A DNA stretch of 64,000 nucleotides from Chitinivibrionales bacterium (GTDB lineage: Bacteria; Fibrobacterota; Chitinivibrionia; Chitinivibrionales; WJKA01): the NCBI GenBank assembly GCA_014728215.1, contig WJLZ01000117.1:62001-126000 (forward strand), given 5' to 3'. A program made the translations under genes and the position numbers. Under the pieces are notes generated by a model. It saw nothing but the letters and a program-made list of their open reading frames with translations. It was not told where the DNA came from and ran no database searches. Shown in pieces: positions 3,450 to 48,059 of this stretch (positions within the stretch are counted from its first letter, which is position 1; each line of letters opens with the position of its first letter).

Positions 3450-3465
3450 TGCAAATTCCATGCCA
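3450..3465 (-). promoter_or_regulatory. Sigma-54 promoter for the PoxB-type gene
   Basis: Reads TGGCATGGAATTTGCA on the minus strand: GG-N10-GC with full -24 and -12 boxes, 85 bases before ATG 3365. It lies back to back with the site at 3484-3499, only 18 bases apart. Confidence 0.8.
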
Positions 3466-34019: not shown

Positions 34020-34565
34020 CTATGAGACAAGCTCTACCTTAATCCAATCCGACTTCCGTATGTCAAAGACGCGGTAGGCCTCGACCGCTTCATCCAGAGA
34101 TACGATCTCGGTAACAATGCCCGATGGGTCAACCGAACCGTTCACAACGAGTTCGAGCAGCTCCGGTATATACCGACGGTGATTGCAGTTCCCCATATTG
34201 ATAGTCAGGTTTTTGTTCATGGCAATACCGATCGGAAAGCGGTGCACCTGCTGGGGATAGACGCCGATAATCGCCAGGGTGCCGGCCTTGTCCAGTGCTT
34301 CAACTTCCCAGTCAAGGGCCGGCGACGGCGCATTACCGGGTTGCCACTGTCCGTTTTCAGGGTGTCGATTGGGAGCAACCTTAACTGTATTTCCCGGAGC
34401 GATTTCCACACAATCCGCACCGAAATAGCCGGTTGGTAAAATATCCGAAAGAAATATGGCACTGGCCGTAATTTTGACAATTGCATCGGTGGGTTCCTGA
34501 ATTTCAGGCTCAGGTACATCGTCGAGTCTGATATCACTTATTTCATGAAATACTACGGCATGCAT
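34020..34565 (-). pseudogene. Zinc-dependent alcohol dehydrogenase with two in-frame internal deletions
   Basis: The frame is open for 181 codons, against about 390 in relatives. It keeps the start (MHAVVFHEISDIRLDDVPEP), jumps at TASAI to LSDILPTGYFGAD (skipping the CGTDLH zinc site and some 100 residues), continues to GNTVKV, then jumps to APNRHPENGQWQPGNAPSP (skipping most of the NAD-binding domain), and ends normally with GTLAIIGVYPQ, NKNLTINMGNCNHRRYIPEL and SDWIKVEL. Both joins preserve the frame and fall at two-residue similarities (AI and VA). Active-site and cofactor regions are lost, so this should not be an active enzyme. A sigma-54-like site lies 60 bases upstream. Confidence 0.8.
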
Positions 34566-37614: not shown

Positions 37615-37630
37615 TGGCATGTAGATTGCA
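37615..37630 (+). promoter_or_regulatory. Sigma-54 promoter for the AEP-like / EndoIV-like operon
   Basis: Reads TGGCATGTAGATTGCA, 170 bases before ATG 37800, a long leader. Confidence 0.75.
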
Positions 37631-37799
37631 TATTTATGAAAATTGAGAATGCCGGTTGCAGAGTGAAAATGCGATGCAGCAAGATGAAAATCTGCTGCCG
37701 TGCTGTTTTAAGATTCCGGATTTGAATTCACCTCGAATTCATTTTCAAAGGTTTTGGTAATTCTGAATAGTGTCATAATCAGGAAAAGAGTTCTTAATA

Positions 37800-39242
37800 A
37801 TGCAAACAATTGAAGTGTTAAAAGGGATGCGTGATGTAGAGAGAGAGCGCATTAAGGAGTATTACCGTACCCCTCCGGTGAGAGAGCGCATTTTAGAATT
37901 CCTCGGTGACGGCGGCAGCAGGGAGCCTACGTGTATGTATATTGCCCACTATGGTAATACAAGCAAATATCTTCCCACAGCAGAACCGGTGTCTGAGCTT
38001 GATAAAATTCTGGGGTACAATGACGGCCTGTTTCGTTCTCTGTGGGATCAGCATTCACTCATTGCAGATGTCGATGTTGAATACGTCAATTTTGATTTTC
38101 CCGCCGAAGCCTATCTCGATCCTTATCGAACGTTTAGTTTGCAGCAGAATGTGAGACAGGCTTTTGTTGATACTTTAGGAGAGTATGGGATTGAGCCTCT
38201 TCAGCTCCTTACCGGACGGGGATATCATTATGTATGGTCTATACCGAAAGGAAGTGCGTCCTTTAATGCTCTGGTCGATATCGGACGTATTGGCGGGGAT
38301 TTGCACGATTATTACCGGTCCCACAAATATTTCGGCAATGCCCGTGTCGACGATACCCTTGGATGTGCCTACACCGGTCTGGGGATGGTTATCGAATACT
38401 TCGCCCACCGAATTATGAGGAAAGCCGGCGGTAAAGGGCCTTTATCGGTGCAATTGACTGCAGTTGTTGTCGGTCCGGCTGAACGGGGAAGGGAAATCGT
38501 TTCTCTTGATATCTCAGAATATGCCGATCCGTTGAACACCCGGATCCTGCAGACCCCTTTTACTCCCTATCTTAAACCTCTGTTGAAAGGGGGCATTTTA
38601 CATGATGGAATACGGAATGAGATTCCGCTTATGACCCCGGTACCCTTGAATGGTCTTGATGTTTATAAAGGGCTCGATACAATGCGGTCACTTTCCCAGA
38701 GTGCTTCCTATGCGTGCACTACCCACACGATTATTCCGGAGATGGGGAGCCCGATGGCGGCGTTGATTGCTGCCTATCGCGGCTCGCCGCTCGCGGGGTT
38801 TCACAAAGATTTTTATTCAGAGGAACACGAGCCGGTGGAACGATGGTCCAACACGTACGATCACCTGGATATGAATCTGCTGCCGGTGTGTATCAGTACT
38901 ATTCTTACCAATCCCAACGATCTGCTGCTCACTCCCGCGGGTATGCAGCAGGTAGTACGGGGGCTCTATGCCTTTGGATGGCATCCGCGGCATATTGCAG
39001 GATTGATCCGCTCGAAGTTCGAACGCAATTTCGGATGGGGTAACGAATGGTATGCCTACAATGCATCGAGCAGGGCGGATGTTTACACCCGGATGTTTGC
39101 CGGACTTATCACTGTCGGACTCGATGAATTAATCGATTTCAATTGTATATCAACAAAGGAAAAGGGTTACTGCTTTAAAAAGGAAGGATACTGCGATCTG
39201 AGCGGTTTACGGCAGGCAGCCCTGGAAAGGAGCCACAGATGA
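37800..39242 (+). CDS. Putative archaeo-eukaryotic primase-like (AEP) protein with C-terminal cysteine cluster
   Basis: A 480-residue protein I cannot name. In the right order it carries features of the AEP fold: an acidic pair after a hydrophobic strand (LIADVDVEY, D90/D92), a G-R-G-Y-H loop after a strand (LQLLTGRGYHYVWSI, 138-143, like the sxH motif), and a third acidic position (IVSLDISEY, D237) followed by DPLNTRILQTPFTP. The far C-terminus has three cysteines in FNCISTKEKGYCFKKEGYC (C449, C458, C465) that could bind zinc or a cluster. A middle segment has AYRGSPLAGFHKDFYSE. No signal or membrane part. The stop overlaps the next gene by four bases. AEP membership is inference from three short motifs. 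Confidence 0.5.
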   Translation: MQTIEVLKGMRDVERERIKEYYRTPPVRERILEFLGDGGSREPTCMYIAHYGNTSKYLPTAEPVSELDKILGYNDGLFRSLWDQHSLIADVDVEYVNFDFPAEAYLDPYRTFSLQQNVRQAFVDTLGEYGIEPLQLLTGRGYHYVWSIPKGSASFNALVDIGRIGGDLHDYYRSHKYFGNARVDDTLGCAYTGLGMVIEYFAHRIMRKAGGKGPLSVQLTAVVVGPAERGREIVSLDISEYADPLNTRILQTPFTPYLKPLLKGGILHDGIRNEIPLMTPVPLNGLDVYKGLDTMRSLSQSASYACTTHTIIPEMGSPMAALIAAYRGSPLAGFHKDFYSEEHEPVERWSNTYDHLDMNLLPVCISTILTNPNDLLLTPAGMQQVVRGLYAFGWHPRHIAGLIRSKFERNFGWGNEWYAYNASSRADVYTRMFAGLITVGLDELIDFNCISTKEKGYCFKKEGYCDLSGLRQAALERSHR

Positions 39243-40132
39243 GCGACTGGCCGGTAGGATTGTCAACAGGATGTTTTTATACCAAAAGCATATTCGATTG
39301 TATCGACAGTATTATCGAAAGCGGTTTCAATATGATCGAAGTATGTTCGTCACCAAACCATCTCGACTACCACAATGAAGCTGCTGTACAGGAGGCGGCG
39401 CGCATGCTTGATGACAAGCATGTTGAAACCTATTCCTTTCACGCTCCCTTTTCGGAAAACATAGATATTACGTCATTAAATGATCACGAACGGGAACATG
39501 CCTTCAATGAGATAAGTCGGGCCGCACAAGCGGCGGCAACGCTCAATGTACGATATTTCGTACTCCATCCGGGCCCCGAAAAGACCTATAATGTTCCGGC
39601 CCACGAGCGCATGCAACGGATGAGAAATGCGGCGGAGGTGCTTGATCGTATCAGTGAACGATGCTCGTCGCTGGGGGTCGGTGTGGTGCTCGAAAACATG
39701 CTTCCCCATCTGTTCTGCGGAGACATCAGCGAAATGGTCTGGCTTCTGGGAAGTATCAACAGTGTTATTCCCGGCGCATGCCTTGATACGGGGCATGCCT
39801 ATCTTTCGGGCAATCTGCATCATGTGATGTATAAGTTGTCGGGACTTCTTTTAATGATCCATGCCAATGACAACAAGGGTAACCGGGACGATCATCTGCC
39901 CCCCGGGCGAGGCGGTATCGAATGGAAACGGTTGCTGTGGGAACTGGGGCGTACCGGCTTTCATGGGGGGATTATTCTGGAGGTTGCCGGAGATGAGCGT
40001 ATGGATCCCGATAAGCTTTTGCATGGCGCAAGAGAAGCCCGGCTCTACCTGCGCCGCATTATGCAGGAACTGGCACTTGCCAGTCCTCCGGCAGTGGCGT
40101 TTGGAAGTTTTGAGAAGGTGCCGGCAGAATAA
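39239..40132 (+). CDS. Endonuclease IV / sugar-phosphate isomerase-type TIM barrel (AP_endonuc_2)
   Basis: A 297-residue TIM barrel. All expected metal-ligand positions of the endonuclease IV fold are present: H in YSFHAPF, H in YFVLHPGP, E in VVLENM, D and H in CLDTGHAY, H in LMIHANDN, D-H in RDDHLPPG, E in IILEVAG. The same set occurs in sugar isomerases (PGxGxIxW in PPGRGGIEW leans that way), so repair nuclease versus sugar epimerase cannot be decided by eye. AAAGGAG precedes the ATG, which overlaps the upstream stop (ATGA). Translational coupling to the AEP-like protein points to a joint function, possibly on nucleic acid. Confidence 0.75.
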   Translation: MSDWPVGLSTGCFYTKSIFDCIDSIIESGFNMIEVCSSPNHLDYHNEAAVQEAARMLDDKHVETYSFHAPFSENIDITSLNDHEREHAFNEISRAAQAAATLNVRYFVLHPGPEKTYNVPAHERMQRMRNAAEVLDRISERCSSLGVGVVLENMLPHLFCGDISEMVWLLGSINSVIPGACLDTGHAYLSGNLHHVMYKLSGLLLMIHANDNKGNRDDHLPPGRGGIEWKRLLWELGRTGFHGGIILEVAGDERMDPDKLLHGAREARLYLRRIMQELALASPPAVAFGSFEKVPAE

Positions 40133-42687: not shown

Positions 42688-42947
42688 CTGGGAAGCAAGG
42701 GCGATGGTGAAGGGGGAGAGTGTTTGAGTTTAAAGGTGAAGGAAATCGAACTTCGGCAGTTAACCGATTAATATCTGCATTCACCCAGGGTTTTATGACC
42801 CAAACCTCTTCATAATAAATGCACCGGTGATTCGCAATGTATTATTTGTGTTTTAATATTATAGTATATTATTACTCTACATTTCACCGAATTCATAACA
42901 AAAAGTCCTTTTAAAAAGCATGTGTCAGGATGGTGGAGAAGGCAGCT

Positions 42948-48059
<5,112 letters not shown>

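Follow-up and report, generated by a model that had tools for sequence, protein, structure and literature searches.

The 64-kb stretch of DNA analysed here (the window) carries two intact open reading frames in tandem, the first encoding a protein with archaeo-eukaryotic primase (AEP) motifs and the second a protein resembling endonuclease IV (EndoIV). The ATGA coupling reported in a preliminary description of the locus was recovered together with both genes (Table 1); the start codon of gene 2 overlaps the stop of gene 1, and a good Shine-Dalgarno sequence is present. The same description had placed the pair under a sigma-54 promoter, and the site is real: nine sigma-54-type sites occur in the window where 0.17 would be expected by chance, and two related genomes have a comparable site ahead of the AEP gene, 161 nt (L011) and 77 nt (L019) upstream of it. 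The perfect matches in the window fall at 3450, 5861, 6284, 29109, 30220, 30250, 37615, 53135 and 63915, and this density, ~50 times that of chance, suggests that the source genome has a large RpoN regulon. Two further reading frames were observed around the pair. Downstream, a 1709-aa ORF (42930-48059, + strand) reads like a CheB/CheR/PAS/histidine-kinase hybrid, and at 34020-34565 (- strand) a 181-aa zinc-alcohol-dehydrogenase-like ORF, with a weak and partial Pfam match, seems to have been truncated or to have lost an internal part.

Table 1. Features of the gene pair and its upstream region, in window coordinates.
Feature	Position	Strand	Description	Basis
Promoter	37615..37630	+	sigma-54-type -24/-12 site, TGGCATGTAGATTGCA	site count in window; like sites in relatives
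Gene 1	37800..39242	+	480 aa; predicted primase-polymerase, AEP (PriS-like) core and PriL-CTD-like C-terminal domain in one chain	
AEP motif I	38073..38081	+	D92-x-E94 (metal ligands)	D92 in 47/47, E94 in 46/47 homologues
AEP motif II	38211..38228	+	T/S-G-R-G-Y/H-H143	G141 in 47/47, H143 in 46/47; hhalign register with DPANN primase motif II
AEP motif III	38508..38576	+	D237...R248...PF[ST]xYxK259	D237, D243, R248, K259 in 47/47; second hhalign match to DPANN motif III
C-terminal domain	38832..39209	+	helical, PriL-CTD-like; predicted 4Fe-4S ligands C364, C449, C458, C465	hhalign, cysteine register
Gene coupling	39239..39242	+	ATGA start/stop overlap of genes 1 and 2	ORF analysis
Gene 2	39239..40132	+	297 aa; TIM barrel of the AP_endonuc_2 superfamily; three-metal ligand set of endonuclease IV complete	

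A predicted single-chain primase-polymerase

No family match to gene 1 was found in Pfam, NCBIfam, PHROGs, PADLOC or the PDB sequences; the Pfam model LigD_Prim-Pol (PF21686) did not match it either, and among 47 homologues hit a single one, at E 0.25. The fold was clearer. AlphaFold2, supplied with 47 sequences, gave a model with a pLDDT of 91.4 and an RRM-like AEP core, for which the top nine Foldseek matches in the PDB were all AEPs. The best of these was Mycobacterium smegmatis Prim-PolC (probability 1.00, E 1.3e-3), with the CRISPR-associated Prim-Pol (CAPP) and the polymerase domain of LigD among the other top folds. Three ordered AEP motifs had been read from the sequence earlier, and the homologues bear this out: the order DxD/E, sxH, hD is that of AEPs, the catalytic residues are kept in at least 46 of 47 sequences, and P253 opens the P-F-[ST]-x-Y-x-K259 stretch of motif III. 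When aligned by hhalign with single-chain primases of DPANN archaea, collected through PF04104, the N-terminal domain matched at P=2.8e-6; motifs I and II fell in register, and motif III aligned in a further hit. Its motifs and modelled fold make gene 1 an AEP whose catalytic motifs are intact and whose polymerase or primase activity is predicted.

The C-terminal cysteine cluster described before was also found, and it gave the protein a more specific likeness. The domain aligned with the DPANN PriL-CTD (hhalign P=2.6e-4; 0.34 for the reversed control) with its cysteines in register (PPC ... NC-x8-C ... C), in a comparison confined to the 30 homologues keeping three of them, and PF04104 made sub-threshold matches over the same region in 6 of the 47 homologues. 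A Foldseek search of the PDB with this domain alone returned nothing significant and no PriL, and the link to PriL thus rests on the profile alignment and the cysteine register. Several Verrucomicrobia have lost the cysteines. The domain is probably a PriL-CTD-like Fe-S domain, and with its cysteines in register with those of PriL, gene 1 looks like a single-chain PriS–PriL-CTD primase. This likeness had been missing from the preliminary description, as had the spread over many phyla and the nearby stress and repair genes described below.

Reports of PriS-PriL fusions are few and limited to Nanoarchaeum, a plasmid of Thermococcus and a provirus of Bacillus (PMC3973330). An earlier survey covers AEP families that are linked to mobile elements (PMC5862659). 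Like gene 1, the single-chain enzymes of DPANN archaea and Nanoarchaeum equitans and the plasmid enzyme PolpTN2 consist of an AEP core followed by an Fe-S-type domain with cysteines in register, but those primases are replicative or plasmid-borne and have no partner nuclease, and their profile similarity to gene 1 is distant. That gene 1 is itself a replication primase of a mobile element, comparable to the PrimPol-PV1 supergroup or to PolpTN2 with its similar fusion (PMC3973330), is largely refuted and the most improbable of the readings considered: it has no helicase fusion, no relatives were found among viruses, phages, plasmids or IMG/VR contigs, and the commonest neighbour families include none from mobile elements.

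An endonuclease-IV-like partner

The complete set of endonuclease IV metal ligands, previously read in gene 2 of the window, proved invariant, all nine residues (H68, H110, E152, D183, H186, H208, D217, H219 and E248) being present in 40/40 homologues. Gene 2 matches AP_endonuc_2 (PF01261, E=2.8e-34) and shares with endonuclease IV (Nfo) the TIM barrel and this metal site, but it scores only 34.2 bits against the NCBIfam deoxyribonuclease IV model (TIGR00587, cut-off 129.65) and is without the insertion loops of the canonical EndoIV that the source genome also encodes. On sequence criteria gene 2 is a separate family within the AP_endonuc_2 superfamily and not a member of endonuclease IV, and for that reason AP-site cleavage by the protein is something we infer. 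The ligands establish a three-metal phosphodiesterase site, and whether DNA is the substrate gives the strongest reason for doubt.

The nearest curated model is CbiR (NF041277), of the same superfamily, which gene 2 matches with 52.1 bits, below the cut-off of 105; the sugar epimerases are further off, and the closest PDB sequence is the uncharacterised MJ1311. CbiR cleaves a cobamide phosphodiester (PMC7733943). Taken at face value, these affinities would make gene 2 a metabolic enzyme, either a CbiR-like phosphodiesterase or a sugar epimerase, coupled to the AEP by chance or for the sake of a nucleotide or cofactor pathway. We regard this as improbable, given that the AEP gene is the sole constant neighbour, that neither sugar nor cobamide genes recur beside the pair, with no cobamide family among its commonest neighbours, and that gene 2 has the full three-metal ligand set, unlike the epimerase-like paralogue in the same genome. 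The sugar-metabolic alternative raised in the preliminary description finds no support in the neighbourhood either, as gene 2 is conserved with the AEP gene and not with sugar-uptake genes.

Distribution and genomic context

Homologues of gene 1 were found at 48 loci in the genome contigs searched, in Fibrobacterota, Desulfobacterota, Planctomycetota, Verrucomicrobiota, Latescibacterota, Omnitrophota, Acidobacteriota, Hydrogenedentota, Chloroflexi, Clostridia, Endomicrobia and one Pacearchaeota. At 40 of the 48, spanning ~10 phyla, the two genes are adjacent on the same strand while the flanking genes vary, and they overlap by 4 nt in 15 and by 59 nt in 12 of these 40 pairs. Within Fibrobacterota, relatives of gene 1 occur in 10/61 genomes, and orthologues of gene 2 are confined to the identical ten. 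The trees of the two proteins are congruent, with a Mantel correlation of 0.82 between their patristic distances that none of 2000 permutations equalled. The pair is sporadic and patchy in its distribution; a sample of 246 Planctomycetota genomes held one close homologue of gene 1 and distant matches in three more. Three contigs (L051, L053 and L065), one of them archaeal (the Pacearchaeota), have diverged AEP genes in tandem and no EndoIV-like gene beside them.

A patchy distribution, together with the appearance of CAPP among the top folds of gene 1, could also be expected of an anti-phage or conflict system by analogy with the CRISPR-associated Prim-Pol or TOTE primases. We consider this very improbable, as neither gene matches PADLOC models and the commonest neighbours include no defence families. 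The preliminary description had offered repair and defence as alternatives; defence gained no support, and repair, as a prediction, remains the best reading in view of the pairing and of the contexts that follow.

Most neighbours of the pair are non-repair genes, which counts against a repair module, yet some loci are suggestive. At a Desulfobacteraceae locus (L034:2993-7096) the AEP gene stands with two divergent Ku genes and, in the place of gene 2, a gene of the uracil-DNA-glycosylase (UDG) family, and at another locus (L052) a HhH-GPD glycosylase lies near gene 1 and gene 2 is missing. Stress genes are over-represented close to the pair: HSP20 appears five times and Usp four times among 106 near genes, whereas the 25 commonest families of the distal genes of the same loci (n=120) include neither. 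Two phyla have HSP20 near the pair, on one side or the other; this context is moderate evidence, because several cases share one Verrucomicrobia clade. No third gene of the module emerged, as HSP20 and Usp are found in some lineages only, and an upstream gene resembling those for secreted or outer-membrane proteins is restricted to one Fibrobacterota family. The latter (L021:1006-1797, L024:7276-7986, L025:7209-7985) lies directly upstream of the AEP gene, has no Pfam match and encodes ~240-260 aa that look like a secreted or outer-membrane protein.

Ku was detected in 15/45 carrier genomes, and this broad co-occurrence is uninformative. The difference seen within Fibrobacterota, where 7/10 carriers and 4/51 non-carriers have Ku, cannot be separated from clade membership. 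Gene 1 shares its AEP fold with the polymerase of LigD/Ku end joining, and two Ku genes adjoin it in L034, but a general role as an NHEJ polymerase was rejected: the source genome has no Ku, LigD or ATP-dependent ligase, and in 7/10 Fibrobacterota carriers canonical Ku and LigD are separate from, and additional to, the pair.

A rival reading is a role in damage tolerance, where gene 1 would prime beyond lesions at stalled forks in the manner of PrimPol, aided by its PriL-like domain, and gene 2 would trim or remove the primer or the lesion end. PriL-CTD-like domains typically belong to AEPs that prime, not to those that fill gaps, and we know of no such domain in Prim-PolC or in LigD polymerase domains. 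Repriming nevertheless appears unlikely, though it is the least so of the alternatives, given that the best structural match of gene 1 is a gap-filling AEP and that a constant partner of nuclease-like type, like the loci with Ku and UDG or with a glycosylase, speaks for excision or end repair.

A candidate two-component repair module

The combined results suggest a model in which the pair is probably, though by no means certainly, a chromosomal, stress-expressed DNA-repair module of two components, with a predicted role in excision repair or gap filling similar to that of Prim-PolC. Expression under stress would proceed from the sigma-54 promoter. Gene 2, as a metal-dependent phosphodiesterase, would open AP sites or remove blocked 3' ends; gene 1 may then close the short gap by synthesis, probably using ribonucleotides like Prim-PolC, or re-prime past the lesion, while its C-terminal domain would grip the 5' side. 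Sealing would be left to the ordinary ligase of the cell, i.e. the NAD+ ligase, because Ku, LigD and ATP-dependent ligases are missing from the source genome.

Mycobacterial Prim-PolC fills short gaps with ribonucleotides; together with LigC it takes part in base excision repair, and does so most efficiently on gaps that EndoIV has prepared (PMC5663958). The pair may thus work like Prim-PolC with EndoIV, both activities being provided by one operon. Prim-PolC is also a stand-alone chromosomal AEP, but it has no sequence-level match to gene 1, is without the PriL-like cysteine domain and is encoded beside ATP-dependent ligases. In favour of a repair module we count the AEP fold, the obligate pairing, the repair and stress contexts and the precedent of Prim-PolC. 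Against it stand the missing Nfo loops, the proximity of gene 2 to CbiR, the canonical EndoIV already present in the genome, the limited occurrence of Ku and the cysteine losses in Verrucomicrobia.

Literature searches found no description of the gene 1 family or of the pairing of an AEP with an EndoIV-like protein. In our judgement there is an even chance that the pair represents an undescribed and widely scattered repair system of bacteria, pairing a single-chain primase of archaeal/eukaryotic type, equipped with a PriL-like Fe-S domain, with a new EndoIV-like phosphodiesterase and operating in dormancy or stress without Ku or ATP-dependent ligase. Among the carriers, Roseiconus nitratireducens JC645 goes by a strain designation and not by a MAG label, and is therefore probably growable and open to testing. 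A PriS-PriL-like layout, missed by current family libraries, is found on bacterial chromosomes of many phyla beside a dedicated nuclease-like partner, and if the proposed function is true, a Ku- and ligase-independent route would be added to the repair pathways that employ AEPs.
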